64,000 nt of DNA, from contig LGRX02027082.1 of assembly GCA_001247695.2 (NCBI GenBank), positions 1-64,000 of the forward strand, read 5' to 3'. The notes below the pieces were generated by a model. That model was given only the letters and a program-made list of their open reading frames with translations, had not been told where the DNA came from and did not search any database. Below are positions 11,107-64,000 of this stretch, piece by piece. Made by a program: the position numbers and the translations under genes. Numbering within the stretch: the stretch's first letter is position 1; each line of letters begins with the position of its first letter. Source of the DNA: Cymbomonas tetramitiformis (lineage: Eukaryota; Chlorophyta; Pyramimonadophyceae; Pyramimonadales; Pyramimonadaceae).

Positions 11107-11116
11107 CTCTTATATA
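11107..11116 (-). promoter_or_regulatory. TATA-box candidate upstream of the transposase C-terminal ORF
   Basis: On the minus strand TATATAAGAG is followed by a run of eight G and then the ORF. It could drive a short transcript, or it may simply lie in the intron between the two transposase exons. Confidence 0.3.
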
Positions 11117-24789: not shown

Positions 24790-26545
24790 AGTTATCTGAC
24801 TCATCCGCGGACGAGTCGCCCGCAGAAATAGACCGAGCTGAAGGGCGACTCATCCGCGGACGCCCGGTCGAGTCAGGCGACTCTAAACGAGTTGCCCGAA
24901 GGATAGGCCGGGAAGGGCGACTCATCCGCGGATGAGTCGCCCGAAGAATAGTCGAGGTGAAGGGCGACGCATCCGTGGACGAGTTGCCCGGAAGAATAGG
25001 CCGAGTGGCGAATCATCCGCGGATGAGTTGCCACAAGAATAGATCGAGGCCAAGGGCGACTCATCCAGATGAGTCGCCCGAAGGATCGGCCGAGCTAAAG
25101 GGCGACGCATCCGCGGATGAGTTGCCCGAAGGATAGGTCGAGCCGAAGGGCGACTTATCCGTGGATGAGTTGCCGGAAGGATAGGCCGGGGCGACTTATC
25201 CGCGGATGAGTCGCCCGAAGAAATAGACCTACCGAGCTGAAGGGCGACTCATCCGCGGACGAGTTGCCCGAAAAATATACCGAGCTGAAAGGCGAATCAT
25301 CCGCGGATGAGTTGCCACAAGAATAGATCGAGCTGAAGGGCGACGTTCATCCGCGGATGAGTTGCCCGAAGGATCGGCCGAGCTGAAGGGCGATGCATCC
25401 GCGGATGTGTTGCCCTAAGGATAGGCCGAGCTGAAGGGCGACTTATCCGTGGATAAGCTGCCCGAAGAAATAGACCGAGCTGAAGGGCGACTTATCCGCG
25501 GATGAGTCGCCCGAAGAATAGACCGAGCTGAAGGGCGACTCATCCGCGGATGAGTCGCCCGAAGAATAGGCCGAGGTGAAGGGCGACGCATCCGCGGATG
25601 AGTTGCCCGAATAATAGGCCGAGCTGAAGGGCGAATCATCCGCGGATGAGTTGCCACAAGAATAGATCGAGCTGAAGGGCGACTCATCCACGGATGAGTT
25701 GCCCGAAGGATCGGCCGAGCTAAAGGGCGACGCATCCGCGGATGAGTTGCCCGAAGGATAGGCCGAGCCGAAGGGCGACTTATCCGTGGATGAGCTGCCC
25801 GAAGGATAGACCGAGCTGAAGGGCGACTTATCCGCGGATGAGTCGCCCGAAGAATAGACCGAGCTGAAGGGCGACCCATCCGCGGATGAGTCGCCCGAAG
25901 AATAGGCCGAGGTGAAGGGCGACGCATCCGCGGATGAGTTGCCCGAAGAATAGGCCGAGCTGAAGGGCGACTTATCCGCGGATGAGCTGCCCGAAGGATA
26001 GGCCGAGCTGAAGGGCGACTTATCCGCGGATGAGTCGCCCGAAGAAATATACCTACGGAGCTGAAGGGCGACTCATCCGCGGATGAGTTGCCCGAATAAT
26101 AGGCCGAGCTGAAGGGCGAATCATCCGCGGATGAGTTGCCACAAGAATAGATCGAGCTGAAGGGCGACTCATCCGCGGATGAGTTGCCCGAAGGATCGGT
26201 CGAGCTAAAGGGCGACGCATCCGCGGATGAGTTGCCCGAAGGATAGGCCGAGCTGAAGGGCGACTTATCCGTGGATGAGCTGCCCGAAGGATAGACCGAG
26301 CTGAAGGGCGACTTATCCGCGGATGAGTCGCCCGAAGAATAGACCGAGCTGAAGGGCGACCCATCCGCGGATGAGTCGCCCGAAGAATAGGCCGAGGTGA
26401 AGGGCGACGCATCCGCGGATGAGTTGCCCGAAGAATAGGCCGAGCTGAAGGGCGAATCATCCGCGGATGAGTTGCCACAAGAATAGATCGAGCTGAAGGG
26501 CGACTCATCCGCGGATGAGTCGCCCGAAGAATAGGCAGAGCTGAT
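24790..26545. repeat. 48-bp satellite with a 28-bp palindrome core
   Basis: About 36 units of 48 bp contain a perfect palindrome whose half is GGGCGACTCATCCG, centred on CCGCGG and followed by AAGAATAGGCCGAGCTGAA. Higher-order blocks of several units are themselves duplicated, for example around 25480-25780 and 25840-26180. Two minus-strand frames are open for hundreds of codons only because 48 is divisible by three. Confidence 0.95.
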
Positions 26546-26579
26546 AGGCATATGCTCTTATTTCTTGGAACGGCCGAGC

Positions 26580-46515: not shown

Positions 46516-47245
46516 TTAGCCTTCATAGGCAGCTATTATGTCTGCTGCATTGGTCAGCTCTGTGGCTTTGACCCAGGTGTCATGCTCAGGGCCGTAGCCT
46601 GCATATCGTACTAAGTAGTATTTGACACCTCTAGTGAACTTATCTGAGAGTATATGTGATATCTCAAATAGTGGTTGCCCTTCTTCGGTGATCATCTGTG
46701 GCAGAGGCAAAGGTGCTTGAATCGAGTCATTGTACAGCTCTAATCTGGAAACAGGCTGTACCGGATGGATACGGATATCAAGATCTCCGAAATCTAGCTC
46801 GTATGCACGTCCATGGCTAAGCACTTTGGAAATGGTGAATGGCCCAATATATGGCTGCTTAAAGTGTCTGCCTGCCTCTGTCAAACCAGTCCATTGAATA
46901 AACTCGGTCCGTAAAAGAACTTTCTGCCCAACTGCAAACTGCTTAGGCATGTGAGTCTTATTGAATCTGGCTTGGCTAATTTCTGCTGCACGGGAAATGT
47001 TGTCTACCGCGTTGGCGTGAACAGCCGAATACTGGTCAAAATGATCTCGAATAGCTCTTTGTATTGGCACCGGAGCTTCTGGCGGAATAGTGATTACCAG
47101 ATCGTGAGGCGAAAGTGGCTGCGCCATCGAGTCGAGATAAAATGGTGAATAACCAGTAGATGCAGAAACTGTGTTGTTAATTGCAAACTCCACCAGAGGC
47201 AACTTGTCCTCCCACGAATTGGCTGAAGTATCATTGCAACAACAC
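46516..47245 (-). CDS. pol: Chromovirus pol, exon 2: integrase C-terminus and chromodomain
   Basis: It begins directly after the acceptor TTCTTCCTCAG with the continuation of the integrase core, NSWEDKLPLVEFAINNTVSA, where the family has W...LP..EFA.N. A GPF/Y-like module follows (KVLLRTEFIQWTGL to YIGPFTISKVLSHG). The last 50 residues are a chromodomain: FEISHILSDKFTRGVKYYLV and RYAGYGPEHDTWVKATELTN. The cage aromatics are partly kept (F, Y, W). In chromoviruses this domain steers integration to heterochromatin marks. The upstream ORF start at 47307 lies in the intron and is not real. Confidence 0.85.
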
Positions 47246-47329
47246 CTGAGGAAGAAAAAATACCATCTAATCAGTTCATAAACAAGAGGATGGTGAAATC
47301 GAATCATGAATCAACAATTTGAAAATTAC
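47246..47329 (-). other. 84-nt spliceosomal intron within the integrase coding region
   Basis: On the minus strand the donor is CCTCAG|GTAATT and the acceptor TTTTTTCTTCCTCAG|GTG. Splicing joins ATC CTC AG|G TGT and restores one continuous integrase frame (FIEDILR|CCCND...). Without splicing, the frame stops two codons after the donor. The octamer CCTCAGGT occurs at both junctions. Confidence 0.75.
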
Positions 47330-50136
47330 CTGAGGATGTCCTCAATGAAGGCATGGCTCCTCTCATTGGCAGCATTCGACTGTGGATGGTGTGAAGATGT
47401 CATGGACAATCTCGTACCAGTAGACTTCCACAGTGTCTGCCAGAATGTAGAGGTGAATCTGGGGTCTCGATCTGAGATGATGTTCCTCGGAAGACCATGG
47501 AGCTTGAAGATATGCTGCATATAGATAGAAGCAGTATGCTGAGCTGTCCAGGTCATGCTGAAGGGAATGAGATGACAGCGATGAGAGAATTGGCACATTA
47601 CCACAAATATACTGTCGTGCCCATTAGTGGTGATAGGCAAGTCAGTGATCCAATCAAGAGATACATCTAGCCATTTTGTCTTAGGCACGGAATATCGTAT
47701 ATGTGCCTGACCATAAGGCTTGTGTCGCCTCGTTTTCTGGCGCTGACAAACGGGGCACTCCCGAATGTAGTTGATAGCTGCCGTTGTCATTCCTGGCCAA
47801 TAATACCGGCTACGCAGAAGATGAAGCATGCGATTTTTGCCTACATGACCAGAAATAGTGGCTGAGTGGCACTCGTGAAGGAGAATATGGCGGAGCTGTG
47901 TGATCTCACCGTCATCTGTGGGAACTTTAGCTGTTGGTGGTATGTACAGCTGTCTGCCATATATGGTCTTACGATAGATCAGTCCCTGAACAAACTCGAA
48001 GCTGTAGCTGCTGACTGACTGAGATGAAGTCGATGATGTCAGCTTAGCCAAGATAGTCTGTGCAAATGTGTCACGATCATATTCAGATATAATGATGTCG
48101 TGAAGCTGGTGAGCTGATGAAGAGGATATACGAGCAATGAATGAAGAATCTGCAGACGGAATGTCGATGACTGGAACCTCGATGATGCCTCTATGTTTCA
48201 GACAATCAAGGAGTTCTAGGAGTGTAGAAATGCGAGTGAGCGCATCTGCAACCTTGTTCTTTTCGCCAGCGATATGCTCAATATGGAAGTTGTACTCGGA
48301 GAGCTCATCCAACCACCGTGCCTGTTTGGGGCTCAGTGTGGATTTAGTCTGGAAATAAACCAGAGGCTGATGATCTGAGCGTACTATGGTCTCAGGAGCT
48401 CCCAACAAGATATGGCGAAAGAACCGGAAGCCCTCCACAATGGCAAATAACTCGATCTCAGGAATAGGCCAACGTCTCTGTGTATCGGATAGAGTGACGC
48501 TGTGATAGCCACATGGCTTCAAACCCTTTCCTTGATCCTGAAGTATTACTTGACCAACGTGTGTGCCTGATCCATCGACCTCCATAATAGATGGCAGTTT
48601 CTGATCTGGGAGCTGCAATACTGGAGCGTTACAGATGGCACTTTTGAGATTGTCAAATGCCTGCTGCTGCTCTGTTTCCCAGACAAACTCTGCATTATCT
48701 TTAAGGAGACGATTGAGCGGCTCGGCAACTTTGGAGAATTTTGGTATGAATCTCCTAAATTGACCGACCATGCCCAAGAATGACCGAAGGGATGACTTGC
48801 CATCTTTAGCCATACGGCGTAGAGGCTGCTTTCCAACGGTGGGACCATAAGACATTGGAGGCTGAATTGCCATGACTGCTCGGATTCTGTCTTCGATGAT
48901 GGATAGACCTGCTTCAGAGATGTTATGTCCGATGAAGTCTATAGATCTGACGAACAACTCCACCTTGGAAGGCCTGATGAAGAACTGATGATCTCTGCAA
49001 CGCTGAAGAAACTGTCGAACATGTGTCACGTGGCTGTCAAAATCTGGACTGTATACGATAGTGTCGTCCATGAATATGACAAGAAACTGATCGATGAAGT
49101 CGAAGAATGCTCGGTTCCCTACACGAAGTGCTGTTGCAGGAGCATTGGTCAATCCGAAAGGCATAACTGTCCATTCATAAGACCCGTATCTGGTACGAAT
49201 AGCAGTTTTATGAATGTCGTCTGGATGGATGGGAATCTGGTTGAAATCAAATCTGCTGAACCAGTGTGCTCCTCTCAATTGCTCAAGTAGGGTGGCATGT
49301 GGTGGCAGTGGATAAGTGTCCTTTATGGTAATGTTATTCAGGGCACGATAATCACAACACATCCTCCACTTTCCCCCTGGCTTAGGAGCGAAAATGATTG
49401 GACACCCATATGGCGATGAAGAAGGACGAAGGATACCCAACTCGACATACTTGATGATTTGCCGTTTGAGCTCCTCCATCATGGGAACAGGGATTGTGCG
49501 AACTGGCTGAGATGGTGGTTTATGCCCAGGTTCAATGTTGATTCGATGATACCCACCTTCAAACCGTTCTGGCCTATGACCAGCTGGAAGATCCTCCTGG
49601 AAAATGTCTGAAAAGTCTTCTCTCACTTGGTCACGTGCTGCTGTGACCTCTGGGTTTTCCATTGTGGTGTCTGAGTCTGATGCTGTGAAGACCAGTTCAC
49701 CATCGACCTCGGAGAGGAAAAAGAGATATGCAACGGCTTCTTCAGCCGAACCACTGGATCGAATGCGACGGAGATGTTTCCTCATAGTGGTGGCACTGAC
49801 CAATTCCATTTCAGGAAGGCCATCTGAGTCTGAGTCTGCAGTCTGCTCAACTCTGGATAGAACTGTACGAACACTGGAACCTGATGAGTGTGTCTTGGTG
49901 ATCGTCATGTTCTTCGACTGAAAGTCTATGTGTGGGTTCCTTCTCTCCAACCAATCCTGTCCCAGGATGACTGTGAAGGGCCTCATATCAATAACATAGA
50001 GGTTTTGAATCCTTATACTTGCCCAGCGTGAATGTAGCATTGGGAAGATAGGATGTACAGGGTAATTGGCTTCCTCCAGCCAACCCCACTGAGAATGACG
50101 ACGAGTCTGATGGTGATATACCAAGCTGAGAAGCAA
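47330..50136 (-). CDS. pol: Chromovirus pol, exon 1: RT, RNase H and integrase core
   Basis: The frame first reads the end of the protease (VIDMRPFTVILGQDWLERRN). RT follows with KWRMCCDYRALNN, WFSRFDFNQIPIHP, the SYEWTVMPFGLTNAPAT block and the catalytic FMDD at about 49064-49075. RNase H follows with ILQDQGKGLKPCGYHSVTLS and a DHQPL motif. The integrase H2C2 finger is at about 47890-47740 (HECHSATISGH to CPVCQRQ), then the core with DWITDLPITTNGHDSIFVVM, a DRDPRFTS aspartate and the glutamate in NAANER. Two departures are seen: the usual FQRLM after NAPAT is replaced by ALRVG, and there is an 18-residue insertion before SFLGMVGQFRRFI. The listed start at 50136 is only the first in-frame start codon. 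Pol is probably expressed from gag by frame change. Confidence 0.88.
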
Positions 50137-50382
50137 ATTGTCTGTCGATAAAAGATGATGTGGCTCCTGGATCTACCAAAATGTGAGTATTCTGTCCAAA
50201 TACTTTCCCCTTGTACAACAACAGCTTCTTCTGTGATTTCAGCTGTGCTGTCTGAGACTGCATCTGTGCGATGTGCTCTGAGGGATTATCTGTTTGCTGG
50301 AACTGCAATGTCAGATTGGATAGGACTTCTTCTGAGATACTCTCAACCTGGCCACTTGCTTCAGTGGCGTCTGCAGGCTGAT
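49988..50382 (-). CDS. Chromovirus protease (frame offset from gag and RT)
   Basis: The frame contains KVFGQNTHILVDPGATSSFI followed by DRQFASQLGIS, a retropepsin with DPGA in place of the usual D[ST]G[AS]. It also contains the spacer upstream (SEEVLSNLTLQFQQ). It ends at a stop a few codons after FTLGKYKDSK, where the RT frame takes over. The open frame begins at 50848, but that upstream part overlaps gag and is the wrong frame. This segment is in a different phase from gag and RT, which share one phase. Confidence 0.75.
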
Positions 50383-51825
50383 CTATCCCCTCTGGGGTGC
50401 TCTGAACAGTGGTACCTGTGCAGTACCCTGAGAGTTTCCCTGAGGAGATGGAGCTGAAGCTGGAGCTGGAGATGGAGCTGGAGTTGAAACTGCAGCATTG
50501 AGGCTCTGCTGATTCTTCAAGGAATTGACCAAGGTGTTGATCGTGTTGATAAGTTTGCCAGACCCATCCTTGGCACCCTGATTCTGCTGCTGTTGCTGCT
50601 GCCTCCGATTCTGAAAATAGGGATTTGGATTTGGAGCTGGTGGCTTTCCCTTGATCTCCTTTCCATCTGGGGTTCTGGTGGAGAAACAATCCTTTGTGGC
50701 GTGATTGGTACGACCACATCGTTGGCAAGGCTGAGGAGGATTTGGTGCTGCTCCTTTTCCTTTTCCTTTTCCACCTTTTCCCTTGCCTTTTCCACCTTTT
50801 CCCTTTGTCCGATTCTGTGGAAAATTCTGGCTGCCATTCTGATTCCAACTCCTATTTCTGTTGGATCTGTCATATGGCTTTTGGCCACGTCCTTTGTTCT
50901 GTTCCTTTCTGACTGGACCTCCAGATGACTGTTCCTTCTGACCCCGATAGTGCAGGGTTTCCGATTGCTTGGAATGAATGACGTAGTTCAGATCAAGCAA
51001 TATCTGTGTGGTTTCTGGCCACGACAGATTGTTCCTCTGCTCTTCTGTCAGATATCTGAGCTGAAACTGTCTTCTGAGATCTGGATCCATACAGGAGACG
51101 AATCTGTCCTTTATCAGCACATCATTCAAATCAACTGCTGCCAGAGAAGCCAGTGATGTGAATGTGCGCAAATAATCTGCAAAGGTTTGGGTTCCTTGAG
51201 TCAGTGCCATAAGATGTTTCTTGGCTACTGATCTCTTATGAGGATTACCAAATTGTCTGAGAAAAGTCTGTCTGATCATTTCATAGGTGGAATGTGGCTG
51301 TTGTGCCTGAACCTGAAAATAGTGTCTGTCATTGTTCTGTATAAGAGTCAAAAATACTGTAATCAAGTCCTTATCAATGACACCTGGATAGGTGAACTGG
51401 AAATATCTGTCCATGGTATCCAACCAGACCTCTGCGTCCTGTCCTGTTTTGAATTCCCTTGGTGGTGTCATTTTCACCTTGGGGACCAAACTAGGTGGTG
51501 CTAATGGTGGCAATGGTGCTGGTACTGAATCTGCATCTGGATCTAAAAAGACCAAAGGAGGATTGTCTTCTGAATATTCTGCTTCTGGTGCCTGTGGCTC
51601 ATTAGCAGGATCCTTGTACCGACTCATATCTGGTTTCATGCGACTGACGTTGTCATAATAGCCAATGTGGTCATATCTGGTTAGTGTATCTGCATAACCA
51701 GCGATCCACTTCGGAACCTTAAACCGACTGTATGCATCATAGGAACCAAGAATGTCGAAAAACCAAGTCGAATGATCTGGGTTGATATCTGGAACCTCAT
51801 GCTCTTCCTCTTCGATAGTAACCAT
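50383..51825 (-). CDS. gag: Chromovirus Gag
   Basis: 480 residues from ATG at 51825, preceded by TGTTTTTAG, which could also be a leader-intron acceptor. The middle holds a Ty3-type capsid (retrotransposon gag) pattern: VWLDTMDRYFQFTYPG, then HYFQVQAQQPHSTYEMIRQT, then the FADYLRTFTSLAS helix and MDPDLRRQFQLRY. A basic Gly/Lys/Asn-rich linker follows, then a zinc knuckle CQRCGRTNHATKDC (CX2CX4HX4C). The tail is Gln/Pro/Ser-rich. It packages element RNA into particles. Confidence 0.88.
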   Translation of the reverse strand: MVTIEEEEHEVPDINPDHSTWFFDILGSYDAYSRFKVPKWIAGYADTLTRYDHIGYYDNVSRMKPDMSRYKDPANEPQAPEAEYSEDNPPLVFLDPDADSVPAPLPPLAPPSLVPKVKMTPPREFKTGQDAEVWLDTMDRYFQFTYPGVIDKDLITVFLTLIQNNDRHYFQVQAQQPHSTYEMIRQTFLRQFGNPHKRSVAKKHLMALTQGTQTFADYLRTFTSLASLAAVDLNDVLIKDRFVSCMDPDLRRQFQLRYLTEEQRNNLSWPETTQILLDLNYVIHSKQSETLHYRGQKEQSSGGPVRKEQNKGRGQKPYDRSNRNRSWNQNGSQNFPQNRTKGKGGKGKGKGGKGKGKGAAPNPPQPCQRCGRTNHATKDCFSTRTPDGKEIKGKPPAPNPNPYFQNRRQQQQQQNQGAKDGSGKLINTINTLVNSLKNQQSLNAAVSTPAPSPAPASAPSPQGNSQGTAQVPLFRAPQRG

Positions 51826-51829
51826 CTAA

Positions 51830-52920
51830 AAACAAAACACCACACAAAAATACCTTCAGCTAATTGCCTAACTGAGTGTGTGTGATTTATATGTTATATA
51901 TGGTATATCAGTATGTTTACATACATATAGTACATTAGTACATAATAATGAGGTAAGTATATATATATATATATCCACCTTCTTCCCCCCTCAAGGAAGT
52001 GTGTGATACAGTGGCAGTTGTCAATTGCCAATACCTCATAATCAGCATGCATCCTTTAAGGAAGCATCTGTCACAGTTCTTGGGTTGTTGCCCATCATAT
52101 AATCATGTCTGTGATGAAACAGTCTCATGATATATCAACGCCAAACACGAAGTTTTATCGAATTACAGTGGCAGTTTAGGGCATATCACGTTACAGTGGC
52201 CCAAACACCCAATAGTGTGATTAGGGTGTTACATGGTATCAGTAACCCCAATATAGGTAAAAAATATGCAGTATAATGTTTTTGCAAAGATTTTTAAGCA
52301 AAACTGCATTTAGTACCTACATGAACGTTAAGTGGTTTTCAGGAGGTGTGTTACACCCCCTGTCACACATATTTAATTTTAGGGTTGTTATAGGGTGTTA
52401 CACATGCTTGTGTGCTCAGGGATTATTTATCAATAGCTGAATAATTAGATCAGCAAAAAAAAATCGACCCGAATTTTTCATTTTGCAATCAAACGTGGAA
52501 CTTTTTCACGCATTTCGTTACAGCCAAAATGTACATCCCTATATATTCAACACCTAATATCTAGGGTGTTACACGAGATATGACCATGGTCATTGTGATT
52601 TGCATATACCTCAATAGGTATAAAATCATAATTTGAAATAAAATAAGGTCGAAATTTCAGTTTTGAAATTTATCGCCAACGTTTTTCACCGATTTTACAG
52701 CCTTTTTCAGCCATGTTTCGGGTAATATATATATCATATCTCGGTGTGTGTGTGGAATATAAAGTACAGAATCGCTGTAATGACTTCACCTTTGCATATG
52801 ACGAATTTCATAGCAAATAAGTGAGTTGTGCTTTATATCAACATTCATGGTTGATAGCATTCTGGGTTTTACTGACTCAAACCCATGTACAGCAAATGTA
52901 CCTTCCCTACAAATTTAGAA
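51830..52920. other. Non-coding region upstream of the chromovirus, with repeated GGTGTTACA motifs
   Basis: GGTGTTACA or a near copy occurs at about 52227, 52391 and 52565, with GTGTTACAC at 52339. These resemble LTR ends (TGTAACACC on the other strand). A (TA)n run lies near 51960. No paired LTR could be shown. Confidence 0.4.
52235..52243 (+). promoter_or_regulatory. Primer-binding-site-like motif after an LTR-like end
   Basis: GGGTGTTACA is followed directly by TGGTATCAG, the start of the initiator-Met-tRNA primer site of many LTR elements. It is in plus orientation, opposite to the chromovirus, so it would belong to a different, truncated element. Nine matching bases only. Confidence 0.3.
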
Positions 52921-53149
52921 CCTTGTGTTTACCTTGTGTTTACCTTGTGTTTCGAGCCAAGTAGGGCCCTACTTGGGCAATGTCGGCAGTAAAATGGCAA
53001 AACCGGCCCAAATCGGGTGAAATGAAGTTTCCGATAGTTTGTTTTTTATTGTAGATATCGATGGTTTGGGTCGATGTAAGACATAGTACGGAGCGAAGTT
53101 TTGGGTGGAATGGCTTTGGTAACCTCACTTTTTGAGGCCTCAAAGTTGT

Positions 53150-53740
53150 GCTACTCGGTACCTGCCCTGTACTTGGGGCTGTACCTGGGCTGTACTTGAA
53201 AACATTGGAAAAAAATATTTTCAGAATCTGTTTTTTTTGGGCTATTACGCTTATTTAGTCCTTACTATGGACAGTCTCCAAAGATTTAACTGAAAAACCA
53301 TTTTACACTTCCTGCTACAGCACCTCAAAGTTAGGTCAGTATGGGCATTGGGTAGGTAAGGGGTAAGTAGGGGGCAATACCTACCCTGTACCTGGGCTGT
53401 ACCTGGGTTGTACCTGGGCTGTACCTGGGCTGTACTTGGAAACATTGGAAAAAAATATTTTCAGAATCTGTTTTTTGGGGCTATTACGCTTATTTAGTCC
53501 TTACTATGGACAATCTCCAAAGATTTAACTGAAAAAACATTTTACACTTCCTGTTACCGCACCTCAAAGTTAGGTCAGTATGGGCATTGGGTAGGTAGGG
53601 GGTAAGTAGGGGGCAATACCTACCCTGTACCTGGGCTGTACCTGGGCTGTACTTGAAAACATTGGGGAAAATATTTTTAGAATCTGTTTTTTTTTGGGCT
53701 ATTACGCTTATTTAGTCCTTACTATGGACAGTCTCCAAAG
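53150..53740. repeat. ~235-bp tandem repeat with GTACCTGGGCT sub-repeats
   Basis: ATTTTCAGAATCTGTTTTTT-type sequence recurs near 53217, 53457 and 53685, with CACCTCAAAGTTAGGTCAGT in between. An 11-bp sub-repeat TGTACCTGGGC expands near 53388-53440. Confidence 0.88.
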
Positions 53741-53759
53741 ATGTACATGGCAATGTCTG

Positions 53760-54195
53760 ATCCTCAGTACTTGAGTATAGATGCATGATAGGTAGGGCCC
53801 TACTTACCCTTGTTTATGTCTAAACATGGCCATACTTACCCTGTACTTGAGTATAGATACATGATAGGTAGGGCCCTACTTACCCTTGTTTATGTATAAA
53901 CATGGCCATACCAGACTAGTACTTGAGTATAGATACATGATAGGTAGGGCCCTACTTACCCTTGTTTATGTATAAGCATGGCCTTACCTGACTAGTACTT
54001 GAGTATAGATACATGATAGGTAGGGCCCTACTTACCCTTGTTTATGTATAAACATGGCCTTACCTGACTAGTACCTGAGTATAGATACATGATAGGTAGG
54101 GCCCTACTTACCCTTGTTTATGTATAAACATGGCCATTTCCGATCAGTACCTGAGCATAGATACATGATAGGTAGGGCCATACTTACCCTTGTTT
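53760..54195. repeat. 76-bp tandem repeat (six copies)
   Basis: GATAGGTAGGGCCCTACTTA recurs at about 53787, 53863, 53939, 54014, 54091 and 54167. The GTAGGGCCCTAC part is a 12-bp palindrome. Confidence 0.93.
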
Positions 54196-54229
54196 ATGTA
54201 TATACACAAACTGATGCTATCTATTTACA

Positions 54230-54442
54230 CTACACAAATGCCATGTCGTACTGCAGGCCTAAGTACGTAGCAAGCTCGTCCTCGCTAGGATTTTCATCCT
54301 GGACATTCTGCTTGAAGAAATCTGCTCGAGGGTCAAGAACCACCGCAGTTTGCATGCAAGGATGCTTCACAATTACTACTTGCGACGCGATCTGATCTGC
54401 GAGCATGAATGGCTCTTTGGTATCGATGTCACAAACCGCGGC
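54230..54442 (-). pseudogene. DUF4216-like C-terminal remnant (CACTA-associated)
   Basis: A 70-residue terminal exon-like frame starts after an acceptor (ACGATAG|GCC). It reads DTKEPFMLADQIASQVVIVK, then HPCMQTAVVLDPRADFF and a Glu/Asp-rich end. In DUF4216 domains, which accompany Tnp2 in CACTA elements, the pattern is EPF.LA.QA.QV.Y..DP....W.VVL...PR. The match is suggestive but short. No other exon was found upstream on the minus strand. Confidence 0.35.
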
Positions 54443-54903
54443 CTATCGTGTATCTTGGCCGGGTTGTGACACTCGTCGTAGCAGTCCCTGTGACGAACAT
54501 ATGACACGCGCAGTACGAGGCGCGCGAGCAATTATGACAAGTGAAGAGATACGGAAAGTCAAGCGGGTGTTACACTGGTTTGGAGATAGTGAGAATAAGT
54601 AGGGCGGCGCAGCAGGGTGAGGCAGACGCTCATTTTTGTTTTGCCTTCGTAACAGCGATTCCGAAGATAGGAAAGACTCGCTCAGACCGCGAAAACAGCA
54701 GTGTTATGATATGAGAATTAATGAGATATGACATTCTTTTGCTTGCAAAGAGATACTTTGGTGGAGATTGTTCCTGTGTGATAGCGTCAGAACTGTAATC
54801 TACAGTCTTTTACAAAACAAAAATGTGCCTTATTACAGACATGTCGTCTGTAATTCTGAGAGCGTAGCACAGTCCTGAAGAACGAGACTTCTGAACGGTG
54901 AAG

Positions 54904-54928
54904 CCAGGGACGGAGTCATCCGTACTGG
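54904..54928 (+). ncRNA. Leader hairpin 1
   Basis: CCAG-GG-ACGGA-GTCA-TCCGT-A-CTGG: two stacked stems (CCAG/CTGG and ACGGA/TCCGT) around a four-base loop. Part of a set of three. Confidence 0.5.
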
Positions 54929-55120
54929 TAAACCTTTGAAGAGGTCGAGGGAAACAGACTGTTGTGACACTCGAAGTTCAGCAGTCTTGCGAAAAGCTCA
55001 GCGGCATAATTAGTACGAAACTGGTTGCCTATCGTTCACTACGACTGCAGCGTTGAGAATGGCATGCTGGGCTATTTTTGGAAGTGACATCCTTCTGGAA
55101 CTAAGCACCAGACGGTAAAG

Positions 55121-55145
55121 CCAGGGACGGATTCATCCGTACTGG
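55121..55145 (+). ncRNA. Leader hairpin 2
   Basis: Same stems as hairpin 1, with loop TTCA. The preceding phrase GGTAAAGCCAGGG is also conserved. Confidence 0.5.
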
Positions 55146-55292
55146 TACGCCAGAAGGCGTGGAGTGAAAGAGGATTGCCAGTGTTCACTATCACGACAGC
55201 GTTCTTTGCGACAATTTAACCCATTCTGGCATCTATGAGTGAGACCATCCTTACGGTGATTGCTACTTAGAGCGAAGCACTGAAAGGTGAGG

Positions 55293-55317
55293 CCAGGGAC
55301 GGATCCATCCGTACTGG
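55293..55317 (+). ncRNA. Leader hairpin 3
   Basis: Same stems, with loop TCCA. It ends about 125 nt upstream of the ORF 1 region. Confidence 0.5.
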
Positions 55318-55444
55318 TAAGCTCGAAAGTGTGGAGTGAAAAGAGCCTTCACATTGGCAACTCCTCACCACCGGGAAATTAGCAACGGAGTCCAGCACTA
55401 ACCTGCAGAAACGGCAAAGGGCTGAGAGGCGTAACCAGAGAGCA

Positions 55445-58400
55445 GTGCGGGTGAGCCAGCATTTTACAGAGCTGGAAGAAGAGGAAGAGACTGCCAGAGG
55501 CCAGACTGAGGGCCAGGCCCCAGTACAACCTCTAGTCCAAGCCCCAGCGCAACCCTTGGTGCAAGCACAAGGGCCAGTAGTGATATTCGAAGAGGAGATG
55601 GAGTACACTGACTCCACACGCCTCGCCCTTGGTACCATACCCATTTACACGGGCACCAAGGAGGAGGACCGCCCCAAGTTCCTGAGGGAATTCGCCAACA
55701 TGTGCGAGAACTTTGTGCGTCAGCACAACGCCAACATCAGGAAGAAGCTCAGGTCCGTGGCTGGCACGCTCACAGAAGCGCAGATCAAGATCCTGAGAGA
55801 GACACCTCCTGACTTTGAGACATTGTGGGACATTATCCCCGCATGTCTGGCTGGCGAGAGTTCGCAGACCCTCAGCTGGTGGCGTGAGAATTATGAGAAA
55901 GGGGGTGTGGTGGCCTCCAACATGGACAGAGTCCTCAAAGACACTAGTGAACATGGCCCACTTGAGGGTTCTATCCCATGTGCCAGGCCCCCTTTCAGTG
56001 AGATGAATGCCGGTGCCACGTGGGTGATAGCAAGGCCAGCGGCTAACAATGACGCCGAAGGGGAAGTTTCCGACGAATATCTGACTGACGGGACTTCGTT
56101 GAAGGGCTTGACGGGACATGACGGTACCCGTGACATGCAATACTTCTATGCGCTCAGGGGTTTCATCGCTGCGCTTGACAAGAAGTTCATGATGAAGGGG
56201 ACTCAGGAGAAAGTTGACCTGTTGACCCAGAAGCCGCAAGAGGTGGGGCAGGATGGGCTAACGTACATGAAGATGTGCCAACGCAGGGAGATGCAGCTCA
56301 GCACTGGTAAACAGCTGAGCGACGCAGAGCTGCGTACCTACATCGAGGACTGCGTGGAGAACCTGCGCATCAGGATCTTCCAGACACGGGTGAAGGAGCA
56401 GCTGAGGGCACAGTTCCCGCCGCCCAATCGGGTGACCTGGAAGGACCTGGAGTCCATCGTCGAGGTACAGGACAAGCTCAAGAACGACGCGGAGTCCTGG
56501 ATCCTCATCTTCCTGCAGGAGATCACCAGGCGATGTGGCTGCCAGTATTCTACCTGGGAAGCTCGTCAACATGGCCTTGACCTCAAGGCCATAAAGAACT
56601 CGATCAGGAAGATCGAGGCAGCCCAGGGAGGACAGTCAGGCGACCTGGAGGACAGCAAGAAGGCGGAGACACCGCCCTCTAAGAAAATGAAGAAAGAGGT
56701 GAACGTGGCCGAGAGAACCAAGAAGCCCTCCTACAACAAGACGCCGCCGCCAGCAGAGGGCACCCGCACAAACGACAAGCCCAAGTGCTTACGCTGTTTC
56801 GGAGGGGGCTGGCACGAGTCCGAGCCTGAGCAGTGCAGGAGTGGCTACAAGCACGTCAAGATGCCTGCGGGGTACCACGAGGACAGGCTTGGTTCCAGCA
56901 AGTGGTGGGACGCGGAGAATGCCGCCCTGCGCATGTACAACTTGAAGAACCGCTTCAAGAGCTCCGACTGGGGCATTCTGGTCACGGACTGGCAGCAACT
57001 GTCCAACGGCGAGAAGGACAAGTACAGGGCACCAGTAAAGAAGCTACCAGCGGACAATCAGAAGGGCACAGCCAGCAACTCTGAGGCGTTGAAGGCTGAG
57101 TACCAGGGCATGGTGGCTGCCCGAAAGACTGCCAGTCGTGCTGGTAGTGTGAGGTCGCAGGTACTGTCTGAAGACGAGGGTTCCGACGAGGAGCCAGTCG
57201 CAGCGAGTGTCGCGGAGAGGGAGACGTACAGCGTCAACATACACGAGACGCATAACCATAGCCACGCAGAAGCAGGAGCGCTGTCTGGTTCCCCTACCAA
57301 TCTACTCGCAGCACTGGCCGAGGAGATGGGTGAAGACGTGCTCTCGAACGCACTCGACACTTTGGGCTTGGGGGAGCTCCCTGAGACACCAGGCAAGAGT
57401 GCTGACCCCGAGTATGCAGCAGCACCGGCTGTAGCACTGGGCAGCACCCAACGCATGAGGGGCTTTCCAGTAAAGACACCTGAGGAGTACGAGGCCGACG
57501 CGCAGGTGCCCATGGCGCCTGCGGCGGACGAGATGCAGAGAAAGGTGCAGCTCATGGCTTCAGTGATCAAGAGCCTAGGAGCGGCCTTCCGTAAGCTATC
57601 TGCTGGACTCGTGGCAGAGGGTCGGATAACAGCCCCCAGGGGTGTTGAAACCTTGGTGGAGCTAGCGGAGACCGACCAGCTCCCCATGCCGACAGCCTTG
57701 GCAGCAGACTGTCAGGGCAGAGGCGAAGAGAATTGTGATGACAGCAACGAAGACGACGACTGCCCAGGCATGGAATCGGGCGGCGACAGCGACGAGGAAG
57801 AGATTCCCCTGGACGAGATGCCGGAGGACATGGTGGAACAGCCCAAGAAGGGGAGAACTACGGTGCGCATCATCGCTGCAGCGGGCTCAATCCAGGAGAG
57901 CTTCGGGGTTAAGGACTTCAGTGAGAGGGGCGAGCTACACGCAGGGACCATGGAGGCCAAAGCATACGAGCACCTAAAGAAGAAGATGCTCAGTGGCCTC
58001 ACAGAGGAGCAGCTCACTGCCATGGCGCAGGTCCAGCCTGTGTGCAAGCTTCTTAACGAGGCTCTGGCACAAGGGATGGCGTTGGTGGCCTCTGGGGGTC
58101 TTCTCATGCTGTACAAGGCTCTCCTTCTAGACACCGGAGCCAACTGCAACATCATCCCCATCAGAACGGTCAACCGGCTCGGCTTGACCGTCTTCGACGC
58201 GGAGACAGGGGCCAGAGTGGCCAGGGGTGACGGCAGCCCTGCAGAGTTCACCAAGTACTGCTACGTGGACGTGGTCCTCGCCGCGGGCACCCCATACATG
58301 ACTCTGCATCGACTCCATGCCTTTGTCACATACACCAACGACACCACGTGGGACTTCTTGGTAGGCACGGGACCCTTGAAGAACGCGCTCAAGCTGACCA

Positions 58401-61400
58401 TCGACCTCTACAGAGGCATCGCCACCTCTGAGGCCGCGGTGTCACTGGGCATGAGGGAGAAGGTCACGCTGCCGCTGATCGAGCTGACACCGCCCGCTGA
58501 TACGAGGAGCAAGCGAAACGAAGACCCCAGGGTGTGTTTGGCGACTGAGATCTTCGACGACGGTGCCACACCAGCGCGCACTCTTACTCCCGCCTTCAAG
58601 GACTGTGCTCCACCTCCAAGTGAGGCGGTGTCTCCGGACACAAGGGGAGAGGAACGCCTGGCCCTCTCAGGAGAAAGGTGTGCACCTGCACCATTTGGGA
58701 CATTCCTACTAAACAACCCCGAGCTGGCGGAGAGCCTGGCAGGGTGGCTAGGAGATATGGAGCTGAGAAGGTTCAACCAGGAAGAGAAGGACATGCTGGA
58801 GGCACGCTGCCAGTCCATGGTGGAAGCGGGCATCCTGCGACCCAGCGCGCTTATGCAGATAGAGGTCACGGGACGGGTCAGCCTGCGGGCCGAGAACTCA
58901 TTATTCGAACCACCCACCCCTGGCACGTCCATAACGAACCGAATGTTGGGCCTGCTGCAAGCAACTTCATGCAGCCAGCACGAGGCCAACGTCGCAACCA
59001 GAGGCGAATGGTCCAGTGTTGAAGAGCCAACCGAGGTGGAGCCCGCCACTCCAGCCAGCCTGGCCACGACCCAGGCAGACCCTCTCTATCCAGACCTTAC
59101 GCAGGAGCAGGAGGCTGAGAGTGAAGCCGACTACATGTTGGCCAGTGCACAGCCTTGGGCGGGCTTGGCGGTGAATCCGTGGGATTGGCAGGACAAGGAG
59201 AGCAGCTGGTCTCAGCAGCGCCTGTACATCGACCGCACGGGCTTCGCTCGCTTGTGCACACTCTGTGAAGATGACGATGGAGGTGAACTGGAAGCAGGAT
59301 TCCTGCGGGTCAAGTTCCCGCGCTGTGGAGAATGGAAGATCATCTTGGAGACAGAGCTACTGTGGCCCGACTTTACACTGGTGGACCAGAAGGTCGACAA
59401 GGAGACGAAGGTACCCTCAGAGACCTGGGCCAAACGGGCGAGTTACAAGAAGGACAACGAGCATGTCCCGCGTCCTGACTGTGGTGCCCATCGAGAAGCT
59501 GGGAGGCACACCATGGCGGATGTTCAGGAGGCCCTCAACGCTCAGCAGATCTACCCCACAGGGGTCGTGACGGGCAAATTTATGTGGGACAAGGTGGCAC
59601 GCCAGTTTTGCGTGCTCAGCGAGCACACTCGCGCTCAGTGGGAGCTCATGGAGCACATGGTGCGTCACACCATGTATGGTGCCACCTGCGTGAGCCCTAT
59701 GGGAAAGGTGACTGGTGAGTTCCAGCTGCCTTTCTATTACGAGAAGGACCAGCATTGGCGATACCAGCACCTGAAGTACGTGCAGCGGGTGGACATCAAT
59801 GACCTCCGAGCTCGTCTGAAGGTGAGGTATGATCGGGAGGCGGCTGGTGCGAAGGTGGTCCCGCAGCTCACGCTGTCGGATGCAGCTGGCAAGGTGGGGA
59901 AGTTCTACCCAGTGACCGATGGGGCAGGAGGAGACGGGGAGGTGTTCAGCACGAACGCCGCCGCCGTGGAGTACCTACACTTGGGGGACAATGTCAGAGA
60001 AATGCTTGGTGCGTGCAAGACAGAGGAACAGGCACGTGACGCACTGGACACCTACGGGGCCAGGCGCGCCCCTCCAGCACGCACGCGCAGGACTCCCAGT
60101 ACACGGAAGACGGTCGGAGGGAGTGGAGCAGGTCCATCTGGCTCTGCTCCGCCGCCACCCTCAGCTCCGCCACGCCTGAGGAATCCGACCTGGCCCGAAG
60201 GAGTTTTCAACCCAAAGCAGTCAGAGTATAACCCGGCGATGTTCCAGGGCACCTACGAGCCGGATTCACCCACCCGCAGCGAGAACCCTACTCAAGGGGC
60301 CGAGTGGCTGGATCCGAAGGGGATCATTGAGTTCGCAGTGTTAAACGGGCAGACGGTCTTCCTCATCCAGTACCGCTGCTTCAAAGGCAAAGTTGAGTTC
60401 CAGCTTGGAAAGCCCTATGCGGAGCGAGGGAAGGGGTTGCACACGTGCCAACTCAGCCACAAGACGCTGCACCAGTACTCCTCCTCCGCAAAAGTGGGTC
60501 AGCGAGGAGAGTGTTTGCCTCTGGGTGGGCAGTCGAAAGGCTGCACGGGTGGGCTCCTGGGCACCATACAGAAGCACGTAGAGCACCTTGGCGCGAGCAC
60601 ACAGCTGGTAGAGATAGCCAAGAGCCACTTGGGCGATGGTCCACCGCGAGGCACTCTACGGGTGTGCAAGACACGAGCCAACCCCCAGGCCAAGGCCGTC
60701 TACTACCTCTTTGAAGATCAGCGCTACTACCAAGACCGGGGATGCGACGAGCTATGGTTCACGGTGGAGTACCTTTCCTCTGAGACACGCAAGTTCGACT
60801 CCTGCTGCTGGGAGACCTGGAACAGGGTGGCCGTCATGCACCAGGAGCCACTAAGTGAGTTCGCGTCCCGGGTAGGGCCCACGTTGCTGACTGAAGCACG
60901 CCAGCGGGAGGAGATGCAGGAGCACCTGCGCAACGACTTCATGCGGTGCTTGGACCCATCAGAGGATGGTTCCCATCATGAACATGCAGGAGATGAGGAA
61001 GAAGTCAGCGAGGCCTCGCACTGGACGCCTACGTCGCCACAAACAGAGAGTTCCTCCGAGGACGAGGAAGTGGAGATCACTGGTGAGAACGTTGCTGGTC
61101 TGGCCGCTGAGCTAGCGCGAGCACGCGCCGAGGGCGTGGAGCGTGCAATCCAAATAGCAGCACTTGAAGAATCCATACGAGCCCGCACGGAGATCATCAG
61201 GGAGCACGTAGAGCGACCTCGCGCTGCCCTCGTAACTGCAAGGATCAGCGCGCTCGGGGCCGACTGCCCTGGGCTTGATGGTCATGGTGGTGCGAGAGCG
61301 ACGCCTACGAGGGAATGTTACACTGGCCAATCTCCCAGTGGGGCACGAGCCGGAGCCTTAGAGGTCAACATGGCTCAGCGATCCGAGCACCAGTCAATAG

Positions 61401-61855
61401 ACGACATTCTGAGCTCCCCGACGCACACTAATTGCACGCAGCAGACTGAAGCAATGCTTCCAGCTGCGCAGGAGCAGGAGGCCACTTTGCTGGTGCCATC
61501 GCCGAGCCGGGGCTCTGCGGCGCCCAGCAGCCCAGAATGGTCCAGTGGCCTCATTGCGCAAACCGACACTCGACGTGAGGACCACCTTACGACAAGACCG
61601 CATTGTCCGACCGAGAGGCTCATGCAGCAACGCTCGCCGCGGGCTGGCCATCGCAGGAGAAGATCTCCAAGCCCCGGGAGGGCAGGCCGACATCATGGAG
61701 CCGCTCGCAGTCAGCATACAGGCAGGAGTGCGTCGCGTGCTTCGCGTGAACGCCAGAGTTATGAAGAGATTTGGGAACAGAGAAGAAGGGACAGCGCGCT
61801 GGGACCTTTTGTAGGGGGCACCGGGCCAGCTGCAGCCCGGCGCGCCCGGTACTGA
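55445..61855 (+). CDS. Retroelement ORF 1: Gag-like polyprotein with aspartic protease
   Basis: 2136 residues. The first listed codon is GTG; the frame is open back to a TAA near 55395, and the first ATG is at 55598, so the true start is uncertain. Residues 60-400 resemble a Gag capsid (IPIYTGTKEEDRPKFLREFA). An atypical zinc knuckle CLRCFGGGWHESEPEQC lies near residue 447. Residues about 484-533 (WQQLSNGEKDKYRAPVKK) look HMG-box-like. Acidic regions follow. A retropepsin LLLDTGANCNIIPIRTVNRL has its catalytic Asp near residue 896. Residues 1200-1750 are unassigned but protein-like. Near residues 1880-1930 is a coiled coil, and at 2060-2105 an Arg/Ser-rich tail. At twice the size of an ordinary Gag-protease, it is unusually long. 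It ends at TGA 61853, overlapping ORF 2. Confidence 0.75.
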   Translation: MRVSQHFTELEEEEETARGQTEGQAPVQPLVQAPAQPLVQAQGPVVIFEEEMEYTDSTRLALGTIPIYTGTKEEDRPKFLREFANMCENFVRQHNANIRKKLRSVAGTLTEAQIKILRETPPDFETLWDIIPACLAGESSQTLSWWRENYEKGGVVASNMDRVLKDTSEHGPLEGSIPCARPPFSEMNAGATWVIARPAANNDAEGEVSDEYLTDGTSLKGLTGHDGTRDMQYFYALRGFIAALDKKFMMKGTQEKVDLLTQKPQEVGQDGLTYMKMCQRREMQLSTGKQLSDAELRTYIEDCVENLRIRIFQTRVKEQLRAQFPPPNRVTWKDLESIVEVQDKLKNDAESWILIFLQEITRRCGCQYSTWEARQHGLDLKAIKNSIRKIEAAQGGQSGDLEDSKKAETPPSKKMKKEVNVAERTKKPSYNKTPPPAEGTRTNDKPKCLRCFGGGWHESEPEQCRSGYKHVKMPAGYHEDRLGSSKWWDAENAALRMYNLKNRFKSSDWGILVTDWQQLSNGEKDKYRAPVKKLPADNQKGTASNSEALKAEYQGMVAARKTASRAGSVRSQVLSEDEGSDEEPVAASVAERETYSVNIHETHNHSHAEAGALSGSPTNLLAALAEEMGEDVLSNALDTLGLGELPETPGKSADPEYAAAPAVALGSTQRMRGFPVKTPEEYEADAQVPMAPAADEMQRKVQLMASVIKSLGAAFRKLSAGLVAEGRITAPRGVETLVELAETDQLPMPTALAADCQGRGEENCDDSNEDDDCPGMESGGDSDEEEIPLDEMPEDMVEQPKKGRTTVRIIAAAGSIQESFGVKDFSERGELHAGTMEAKAYEHLKKKMLSGLTEEQLTAMAQVQPVCKLLNEALAQGMALVASGGLLMLYKALLLDTGANCNIIPIRTVNRLGLTVFDAETGARVARGDGSPAEFTKYCYVDVVLAAGTPYMTLHRLHAFVTYTNDTTWDFLVGTGPLKNALKLTIDLYRGIATSEAAVSLGMREKVTLPLIELTPPADTRSKRNEDPRVCLATEIFDDGATPARTLTPAFKDCAPPPSEAVSPDTRGEERLALSGERCAPAPFGTFLLNNPELAESLAGWLGDMELRRFNQEEKDMLEARCQSMVEAGILRPSALMQIEVTGRVSLRAENSLFEPPTPGTSITNRMLGLLQATSCSQHEANVATRGEWSSVEEPTEVEPATPASLATTQADPLYPDLTQEQEAESEADYMLASAQPWAGLAVNPWDWQDKESSWSQQRLYIDRTGFARLCTLCEDDDGGELEAGFLRVKFPRCGEWKIILETELLWPDFTLVDQKVDKETKVPSETWAKRASYKKDNEHVPRPDCGAHREAGRHTMADVQEALNAQQIYPTGVVTGKFMWDKVARQFCVLSEHTRAQWELMEHMVRHTMYGATCVSPMGKVTGEFQLPFYYEKDQHWRYQHLKYVQRVDINDLRARLKVRYDREAAGAKVVPQLTLSDAAGKVGKFYPVTDGAGGDGEVFSTNAAAVEYLHLGDNVREMLGACKTEEQARDALDTYGARRAPPARTRRTPSTRKTVGGSGAGPSGSAPPPPSAPPRLRNPTWPEGVFNPKQSEYNPAMFQGTYEPDSPTRSENPTQGAEWLDPKGIIEFAVLNGQTVFLIQYRCFKGKVEFQLGKPYAERGKGLHTCQLSHKTLHQYSSSAKVGQRGECLPLGGQSKGCTGGLLGTIQKHVEHLGASTQLVEIAKSHLGDGPPRGTLRVCKTRANPQAKAVYYLFEDQRYYQDRGCDELWFTVEYLSSETRKFDSCCWETWNRVAVMHQEPLSEFASRVGPTLLTEARQREEMQEHLRNDFMRCLDPSEDGSHHEHAGDEEEVSEASHWTPTSPQTESSSEDEEVEITGENVAGLAAELARARAEGVERAIQIAALEESIRARTEIIREHVERPRAALVTARISALGADCPGLDGHGGARATPTRECYTGQSPSGARAGALEVNMAQRSEHQSIDDILSSPTHTNCTQQTEAMLPAAQEQEATLLVPSPSRGSAAPSSPEWSSGLIAQTDTRREDHLTTRPHCPTERLMQQRSPRAGHRRRRSPSPGRAGRHHGAARSQHTGRSASRASRERQSYEEIWEQRRRDSALGPFVGGTGPAAARRARY

Positions 61856-64000
61856 GAAGCAGCCCCGGCGCACAGCCGGGCACAGAGCCCGCCAACGGAT
61901 GGTGGGCGAGGCGCACTCAGGTGTGCTTCCTATTGGTGGGGGTGTTCACGCGCTCACATTGGCCGCAGCTACCTCACTTTGCAGTCGCGGTCGTGTGGAT
62001 GGCCATGGAGATATTAAGATACCTTTGGGAAGAGGGCGCTGGCTGGGCATGCCGCGATGGTGTGTGCCACAAGGTTTGGGCGCGCACGTCGTGGGTCGTG
62101 CGTACCGCCTCGCTCCGGCCATGGTCACATCGTCGAGTGCATCTGCATGTTCTGACGGAACTGGCTAGGCACATGCTGCTGCTGGTCGTGGAGGCCTTCC
62201 GCGTGACAGGGCTCCACCATGTCCTGCACGGCCTGTGGTACGTGCCGTTGTTGCGGATTGGGCTCGCCATGATCGCCGTGCACTTCGTACGCATGGTCAT
62301 CGCTCTGGGGTGCATCCTGATGGCTGTCGCCCACGTTGCGAACCATGGGTTTCCAGGCTCCTGCTTGGTTTACAATGAAAGCGCACTCGCCGCGCTTAGA
62401 GAGCGAGTGAACCGCGCGCTGATAGTGGTACAGCGGATCTCCGCAGCGGGTCCTGCCGCGCTGGCAGCTGTCCCTCGACGCATGCAGAAGCCGCGTTTCG
62501 CCGCCCGCCTGCGGCGCTTACAGCTCACCGCCGCCTGCTACCGGGTGGCTCATTACATCTACATGACGTCAGTCTTGGCGTTGGTGATCTACGTGTCTTC
62601 AGGAGGGTGCTTGGGTCGTATACAAGGGGGGTGGAAGATGCTGACTTGCATACTGACCCTTCACCCTCCAGCCAAACCAATGGGGATCAGCAGAATTTTG
62701 AAACTTTTGCTATTGCTTGTAGTTGCTGCTTGGGTGGCCGCTGTGACCCCTGGTGAGTTCCCAAGCGTGCCTTCAGTGGGCTCGTGCTCGACCTCGCCAC
62801 GCAGGTCTTTCAGGACCACATGGGAGGACCAGAGGTCCTCACGCCAATGGGACACTGGATGGGAGGCCATGGTGGCAGAACAAGATGAGGTGCTTCCACA
62901 CACAGTGCTGGACACGTTACAGCCAGGGGGCACGACCAGAGTCACCAAGGACGAGGCCGCGTGGCTGGACACCGAGCTCAATGCCACCTTTGGAGGACAT
63001 CCCGAATTCACTGAGGAGAACTGGGAGGAGATGCGCAACGTGGTGAGGAGATGCAGCTATTGCTTCGCCAACAAACCGCAGGACATCCAAGGCTACCATG
63101 GAGGAGCGGCGCATGCGACCTTCGCCATCCCGTTCAAGGACGAGACTAAGGTGGCCTACCAGCGACCAAGGAAGTACAGCCCAGGGGAACAGGAGATCAT
63201 CAACCTGCACTGCAATGAGCTGTTGGAGTATGGCTTCATCGAGCCGGCTTCGCAGCACTGCAGACACGCCAGCAACGTGGTGGTCGCAGGGAAGAAGGAC
63301 CACGACACCGGACAGTGGACCTCGACGAGGTTCTGCGTTGACCTTCGCGCAACCAACAGGTTGTCGCTGAAGGACAACACGCTGCCTCACCGGCCAGAAG
63401 AGCTCTACCAGCGCGTGGCCAAAGCCAAGTTCAAGACTACTCTGGACGCGACCAAGGCGTTCCACCAGATCCCTATGACCACCGAGGAGGACAGGGACAA
63501 GACAGCGTTCTGGTGGGGCAACCAGCTTTATCGTTACACTTCCATGCCATTTGGAGCAGCTGGAGCGACCGCTGCCTTCATCAGGATCATGGACTACGAG
63601 CTGCGTCACCTGCAGCATTGTACGGTGGCGTACGTCGATGACGTGTGCATATACTCTGACACCGCTGAGCAGCACATCAAGGACGTAGAAGCTGTGCTTC
63701 GCACCTTGGGGGATGCAGGGATTCGCCTGCATTCGGGCAAGTCGACCTTCGGGTCAGCCACCGTGGACTTCTTGGGCTACCGCATTGGTCACAACACCAT
63801 TGGTGCGCAGGACATCAAGTGCAAGGCCATCCAAGAGCTGCCCAAGCCCCAGGACAAGACTGGAGTACGCTCCATCCTTGGACTCATGAACTACTACAAG
63901 GGCTTGGTGGGGGAGCCCATGGGACCCAACTACTCAGAGATGGCACGACCACTGAACGACCTGCTCAGAAAGGATGTGTTGGATATCAAGGAAGCGTGGG
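61765..64000 (+). CDS. Retroelement ORF 2: hydrophobic region followed by reverse transcriptase (partial)
   Basis: The frame is open from a TGA at 61762 to the window end, at least 745 codons, overlapping ORF 1 by 91 nt in the -1 frame. About 300 residues precede the RT. They include hydrophobic stretches at about 62244-62342 (PLLRIGLAMIAVHFVRMVIA and on), 62554-62600 (YIYMTSVLALVIYVSS) and 62692-62745 (ILKLLLLLVVAAWVAAV). An acidic linker follows, then a Ty3-like RT: YSPGEQEIINLHCNELLEYG, RFCVDLRATNR, KTTLDATKAFHQIPM with catalytic Asp at 63445, YRYTSMPFGAAGATAAF, and YVDD at 63631-63642. The thumb region LPKPQDKTGVRSILGLMNYY follows. RNase H and integrase are outside the window. No ATG lies near the start of the overlap, so frameshifting or an internal start (62173 or 62680) is needed. 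Confidence 0.8.

Follow-up and report, generated by a model that had tools for sequence, protein, structure and literature searches.

A hydrophobic region precedes the reverse transcriptase of a Ty3-type element

The stretch of DNA analysed here, which we call the window, comprises positions 1–64000 of the 64127-base contig LGRX02027082.1 of the chlorophyte Cymbomonas tetramitiformis, and its right-hand part carries a Ty3-type long terminal repeat (LTR) retrotransposon. Coordinates are window positions throughout, L001 denotes the window copy of the element, and residue numbers are those of its second open reading frame (ORF2), counted from the start of the frame. ORF2, read stop to stop, is open from 61765 to the window end (64000; 745 codons) and encodes a reverse transcriptase (RT; Pfam RVT_1, expect value (E) 3e-22, residues 526–674). 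It overlaps the last 91 bases of the preceding ORF1 (61765–61855) in the −1 frame, a detail that differs from a preliminary description of this DNA made from the letters alone. That description had drawn attention to an uninterrupted hydrophobic region with interspersed charges before the RT, which it read as a multi-pass segment between Gag-protease and RT in an unusual architecture, and it had also raised an intron, an internal start and release of a separate product by the protease. The region is as described. Its interpretation held in part: the multi-pass segment and the unusual architecture are supported by frames that stay open, by purifying selection and by the conservation seen in divergent subfamilies; the intron and the internal start were not supported.

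Hydropathy was scored on the Kyte–Doolittle scale in 19-residue segments with a threshold of 1.6. Four segments of ORF2 (residues 170–188, 218–236, 265–283 and 311–329) score at least 1.6. Residues 49–332, hereafter the domain, have a mean hydropathy of +0.60, compared with −0.64 for ORF1 and −0.60 for residues 333–745, and contain 32 lysines and arginines (K+R) against 9 aspartates and glutamates (D+E). Four segments were found in none of 2000 equal-length draws from ORF1 and none of 2000 from the rest of ORF2, and the other two forward and three reverse frames of the same DNA, with stops removed, contained no segment at 1.6. Shuffles of the domain's own residues reached four or more segments in 526 of 2000 cases; hence, the unusual feature of the domain is its composition, not the order of its residues.

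Purifying selection acts on the domain in the RT frame

We searched the genome (851.7 Mb, 25745 contigs) with the 745-residue frame and scored 60 of the 11000 candidates of a first look, the window included. The matched frame lacked a stop in 53 of these 60 places, and 15 of the 60 lay in frames of 2394–2402 residues. For pairwise comparisons, 30 loci were cut out of the 60 scored places and 12 pairs were chosen. In these pairs, the ratio of nonsynonymous to synonymous change (dN/dS) was 0.21–0.53 for residues 49–332 and 0.03–0.14 for the RT part. Bootstrapping six pairs with three divisions of the region placed 18 of 18 intervals below 1, the highest upper limits being 0.62 (whole region), 0.82 (residues 49–225) and 0.63 (residues 226–332). 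The other two frames, in five comparisons, gave dN/dS of 0.80–3.0 with 4–21 stop-bearing codons, and the third codon position was the most changed in all five. Read in the frame of the RT, the domain thus experiences purifying selection, although less strongly than the RT itself. Stops or a lack of such selection in other copies had been named in the preliminary description as grounds for abandoning its reading, and neither check, now run, gave such grounds.

The domain changes much faster than the RT. Between L001 and L030, dN was 0.178 in the domain and 0.014 in the RT; the last 310–510 codons of ORF1 (four pairs; dN 0.134–0.252, dN/dS 0.34–0.52) evolve at about the same pace as the domain. 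Between L001 and L019, synonymous change also differed, with dS of 0.395 in the domain and 0.114 in the RT (ratio 3.5), a gap that suggests recombination between subfamilies. Domains only 26–28% identical precede RTs that are 84–85% identical (P0003, P0002 type), and the domain seems either to be exchanged between elements or to evolve very fast. With its numerous copies, spread over diverged subfamilies within a single genome, the family offers a natural data set for studying the role of the domain.

The domain is fused to the RT in divergent relatives

A second search used as query the domain of P0002, a divergent copy, and scored 120 of 2289 candidates. This gave 129 match rows, some places having two, of which 118 were without stops and 125 were at 29–47% identity. 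Some of these rows may lie outside elements, and the domain may be of host origin. Twelve divergent places were fetched from this search, and eight of them were aligned with the window, five closer loci and the proteins P0003, P0007 and P0008 (17 sequences). Half of the 16 aligned relatives are only 26–31% identical to the window in the domain, and the fusion of domain to RT is kept at this distance. Further clade members with the domain are L046 (by eye), L050 and L053. Within the clade, the domain is old.

The family mean hydropathy peaks at about residues 54–60, 79–84, 134–140, 164–189, 264–279 and 314–324. Segments 5 and 6 (Table 1) are strong in all 17 sequences, scoring 1.69–2.85 over 17 residues. 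Segments 1–4 are variable, and segment 1 is uncovered in three of the 17. The weaker segments at about residues 53–69, 72–89 and 131–149 are hydrophobic in most relatives; segment 218–236 is less hydrophobic across the family as a whole and may be no membrane helix. We estimate from the alignment that the membrane segments number about six. A PRF motif within the basic stretch is invariant (L039 and L040 have PRFT in place of PRFA); a GW follows, and its W is nearly invariant. The loop between segments 2 and 3 carries on average 5.0 K+R versus 1.1 D+E, and that between segments 4 and 5 carries 11.2 versus 2.3. Two AlphaFold models of the domain are all-helical, at low confidence (mean predicted local distance difference test score (pLDDT) 57 and 62).

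Could the region be hydrophobic by composition alone, its helices buried in a soluble domain such as a capsid-like or connection domain? The frequency with which the domain's own shuffles reach four segments fits this idea, as do the long helices of the AlphaFold models and a weak, non-significant Foldseek list that includes soluble coiled proteins. Against it stand the strength of segments 5 and 6 in every aligned sequence and the basic loops 2–3 and 4–5, and we consider it unlikely. As a matter of anatomy, we are confident that this is a genuine conserved membrane-like domain of Pol.

ORF2 is probably expressed by frameshifting

The ORF1/ORF2 overlap was readable in 10 of the 12 divergent places, the exceptions being L036 and L042, and ORF2 was in the −1 frame in all ten. 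In L041 and L044, the domain frame is broken further downstream. In all ten, as in the window, the overlap contains NNT TTT when read in the frame of ORF1. Of the 30 closer loci, 27 carry a CCTTTT..AGGGGGC stretch with a GC-rich inverted repeat after it, nearly constant in form; in L014 a single base is added at T TTT, and L009–L012 have G GGG GGC. Within the overlap, the ORF2-frame dN/dS exceeded 1 in seven of the 12 pairs, was zero in one and was undefined in four, which is what constraint on the ORF1 frame would produce. These patterns in the sequence make −1 frameshifting the probable route to ORF2, with the conserved stretch as a candidate signal.

The preliminary description had noted a donor-like GTGAGT at 62752, leaving open that part of the region is intronic. 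The motif is present in the window, but is not conserved: 18 of 30 copies read GGTGAG and 12 read GGGGAG. An intron with this donor was rejected as a shared mechanism because those 12 copies have GG in place of GT and the frame is both open and under selection on either side of it. An internal start common to the family found no support either, since no methionine of window residues 49–334 is common to all 17 aligned sequences; methionines 79 and 81 are present in eight and absent in nine (one a gap at 79). The hydrophobic stretch would lie outside the RT protein if it were an intron or a translated leader, or if the RT began at an internal ATG. The donor-like motif in 18 copies and the paired methionines in eight sequences are what such a reading can draw on, and their absence elsewhere, together with dN/dS below 1 in a single frame on both sides of the motif, makes it highly improbable.

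The rest of Pol places the element with Ty3-type retrotransposons

ORF2 of the copy on contig C11922 ends at residue 2399. Along Pol, RNase H (about residues 745–874) is followed by a C5 DNA methyltransferase match (about 1151–1219), the zinc finger and core of integrase (about 1620–1787) and a PHD finger (about 1996–2040). The Pfam matches to RT_RNaseH and Integrase_H2C2 are above their cut-offs, and that to the integrase core, rve, is below its cut-off. The order of RT, RNase H and then integrase is that of Ty3-type LTR retrotransposons, and the best Protein Data Bank (PDB) match of the Pol part of L031 is Ty3 Gag-Pol (7q5b, E 1.2e-50). ORF1 has a weak aspartyl protease match at its residues 928–970 (about 58121–58249; Pfam E 0.012 and 0.05, below cut-off) with a DTGANCNII motif. 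This match does not lie directly before the RT: the two are separated by about 1200 more residues of ORF1 and then by the membrane-like domain. We treated a protease directly before the RT as the usual Ty3 order, not as a defining feature.

The element shares with Ty3-type (Metaviridae-like) elements the RT–RNase H–integrase order and probably a protease-like motif and an LTR-like repeat. It differs in the membrane-like domain of about 280 residues and the linker before the RT, in its 2171-residue ORF1, and in the C5 methyltransferase and PHD finger matches in Pol. The C5 cytosine DNA methyltransferase match (L031:3-5264, L032:1-5286) lies after RNase H and before integrase and includes the PCQ and ENV motifs. 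The last part of Pol, DPWAGTG...TSPWF, resembles another methyltransferase by eye, with no Pfam match. By eye, the same order of RT, RNase H and methyltransferase-like stretch is seen in P0028, a EukProt protein whose RT is 39% identical. A Gypsy-type Pol with a cytosine DNA methyltransferase is also described for KnitGypsy-Dnmt3 of Klebsormidium nitens (PMC5890265); the main text of that paper has 0 occurrences of 'transmembrane' and of 'Cymbomonas'.

The 2015 genome paper reports three scaffolds of >10000-fold coverage with matches to chromodomain, RNase H and cytosine methyltransferase, and sequences in the transcriptome for 19 of 23 scaffolds of >5000-fold coverage (PMC5741210). If these scaffolds belong to the element family, they would fit an abundant, perhaps expressed element.

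No homologue of the domain was found beyond one clade in the databases searched

The RT relatives named by organism are all from C. tetramitiformis, at 70–95% identity (72–85% for the four covering at least 90% of the query). A profile search of 5.8 billion proteins, with 7996 candidates scored, gave 54 matches: Cymbomonas-named and EukProt sequences, two from metagenome-type sources (P0003 and P0051) and a further six (P0062–P0067). When 70 collected proteins were compared with a domain-plus-linker profile, 36 matched, some in the linker alone, with the P0002-like proteins, P0003, P0007 and P0008 in or near the profile; P0021, P0022, P0028 and P0062–P0067 did not match it. P0021, a metagenomic protein (jgi) with an RT 40% identical, has three segments (2.57, 1.80 and 1.99) at the equivalent place. 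By profile, this part shows no homology to the domain, its likeness being one of position alone. Membrane anchoring of Pol may thus have been kept, or regained, beyond C. tetramitiformis. Nine other RT proteins were scanned for segments of at least 1.6; eight had none and P0063 had two isolated ones. P0022 and P0028 begin at or inside the RT and are uninformative on what precedes it. L051 has no domain match before its RT.

The domain had a best E of 0.18 against Pfam, and no match up to E 1 in NCBIfam or among PDB sequences. A word-based protein search with residues 1–340 found none of 7994 scored candidates at E 0.001, a result of little weight since relatives (P0002, P0008 and others) are present there. 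A search of viral contigs found no relative, and records of the C. tetramitiformis genome are possibly absent from them. No homologue was found outside the clade in the databases searched. No title or abstract in the literature searched reports a membrane domain before an RT, although work published in subscription journals may have escaped the search; within that literature, the gene order appears to be new.

Among relatives of LTR retrotransposons, the membrane proteins known are envelopes, whose genes come after integrase. Ty3 elements and retroviruses that bear an envelope resemble the present element in that a retroelement encodes a membrane protein, but their env gene follows integrase and specifies a glycoprotein with one anchor. 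The domain could be an envelope or cell-entry protein relocated from after integrase to before the RT: it is hydrophobic and diverges faster than the RT, and faster divergence is usual for envelopes. However, it is basic and has many segments, rather than a long ectodomain with one anchor, and it lies before the RT. Moreover, 12 of the 17 aligned sequences have no glycosylation sequon, the sequon of the window copy (NES at residue 204) is shared with L018 alone and the others lie at different places, and the domain has no match in Pfam, NCBIfam, PDB sequences or PDB folds. We consider an envelope origin very unlikely.

A membrane anchor for Gag-Pol is the favoured explanation

In the general view, LTR retrotransposons replicate in cytoplasmic particles; tying replication machinery to a membrane is known from the replicases of positive-strand RNA viruses. 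We propose that in this clade of Ty3-type LTR elements the domain would form a basic, helical, multi-pass N-terminal part of Pol, with about six segments, translated only when ribosomes slip −1 from ORF1 into ORF2 within the 91-base overlap. The product would be a Gag–protease–membrane domain–RT–RNase H–methyltransferase–integrase polyprotein. An even number of segments would place Gag-protease and RT on the same, cytosolic, face, and the loop charges favour the cytosolic side for loops 2–3 and 4–5. The domain would anchor the polyprotein on an internal membrane and, with it, the assembly of particles or reverse transcription. Such an anchor would be a built-in counterpart of the dependence of yeast Ty1, which belongs to another superfamily, on the endoplasmic reticulum (ER). 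In Ty1, Gag is degraded and retrosomes are not formed without ER translocation (PMC3945221). The use of the ER in particle assembly is thus the proposed likeness, by analogy, and the difference is that in Ty1 Gag itself is translocated.

We place the anchor first because an even segment number suits a Gag-Pol fusion and because Ty1 shows that ER-dependent assembly is possible; a released pore-like or remodelling protein comes second, and an envelope is unlikely. In the second case, the protease would free the domain from the polyprotein to act alone as a small membrane protein, for example a viroporin-like pore or a membrane remodeller. A basic multi-pass hydrophobic domain followed by a conserved hydrophilic linker would suit release, as would a protein that evolves much faster than the RT (the L001–L030 comparison above). 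However, the fused frame is uninterrupted, a cleavage site is not known, and an anchor needs no release. We regard release as rather improbable.

Several observations weigh against a frameshifted, multi-pass anchor. Segments 1–3 are weak in the window copy (0.97, 1.51 and 1.46), as are segment 2 in L039, L040 and P0008 and segment 4 in P0007. Loop 5–6 is basic too (4.1 K+R, 0.1 D+E), which misfits a simple six-segment positive-inside topology. The AlphaFold models are of low confidence, and the second has no PDB fold match (Foldseek, best E 0.72). Some of the scored copies have a broken ORF1, for example that on C11922, which is interrupted by a stop. At the overlap, T TTT is missing from two of the 27 closer copies with the conserved stretch (L022 and L025), most heptamers are non-canonical, near-heptamers of the X XXY YYZ type occurring in most copies, and the hairpin folds no more strongly than shuffles (z −0.52). 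Finally, in L052, whose family is a distant one within this genome (41% RT identity over 148 residues), neither open piece has a 1.6 segment before the RT; hence, not all relatives need the domain.

On balance, we lean towards the explanation as a whole, with a membrane domain at the N terminus of Pol, made by frameshifting and anchoring Gag-Pol. Anchoring as the domain's function is by itself a tentative assignment. Somewhat more speculative is that the polymerase of this abundant element is itself an integral membrane protein, with assembly and reverse transcription on an organelle membrane and perhaps membrane-wrapped particles. If the explanation is true, this is a retroelement that tethers its replication machinery to a membrane through a multi-pass start of Pol.

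Layout of the element and its surroundings

The features of the element are collected in Table 1. The similarity of the window copy to the C11922 copy (L033) begins at 54427, and the stretch from there to 54814 matches, at 84%, a 388-base stretch 3′ of ORF2 in copy L032 (contig C225). No such match was seen 3′ of ORF2 in C11922, and an LTR pair within one copy was not seen. The 41-base leader motif occurs at 54891–54931, 55108–55148 and 55280–55320, with the same core hairpin on folding each time; its core is also present three times in L033. It could be a packaging or translation signal.

Table 1 Features of the element in the window
Feature	Position	Strand	Basis or remark
Probable 5′ LTR	54427..54814	+	388 bases; exact end approximate
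Leader with three copies of 41-base hairpin motif	54891..55320	+	Fold z-scores −2.1, −1.9, −1.0
ORF1, stop to stop, 2171 residues, Gag/protease side	55340..61855	+	ORF reading
ORF1/ORF2 overlap, 91 bases, ORF2 in −1 frame	61765..61855	+	ORF reading; kept in relatives
Candidate frameshift stretch A CCT TTT GTA GGG GGC (ORF1 frame), then GC-rich inverted repeat	61804..61819	+	
Membrane-like domain, ORF2 residues 49–332	61909..62760	+	Hydropathy, dN/dS, alignment
Putative membrane segment 1	61921..61971	+	Weak in window copy, strong in L039 and L040
Putative membrane segment 2	61978..62031	+	
Putative membrane segment 3	62155..62211	+	
Putative membrane segment 4, long, perhaps two	62236..62337	+	
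Basic segment with nearly invariant PRFA.R	62476..62526	+	
Putative membrane segment 5	62545..62613	+	
Putative membrane segment 6, strongest	62695..62757	+	
Hydrophilic linker, strongly conserved	62761..62949	+	dN/dS 0–0.23 in 12 pairs
Reverse transcriptase part, runs beyond window	62950..63999	+	Pfam RVT_1 at 63340–63786

A search of 51000–64000 against Rfam gave two matches, both under their gathering scores. Directly 5′ of the element, at 53176–54278, lie tandem repeats of 76 and about 239 bases. A chromovirus-type Ty3 element occupies 46516–51825 on the minus strand, with Gag, protease, RT, RNase H, integrase and chromodomain in several overlapping frames. Elsewhere in the window, an ORF at 7818–9194 has a strong DUF7869 match (E 3e-48), and minus-strand ORFs of 415 and 267 residues at 9872–11116 and 11254–12054 are without Pfam match. 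Long open frames on the minus strand at 5027–5800 and 25415–26557 consist of short tandem repeats and are probably minisatellites, not genes.

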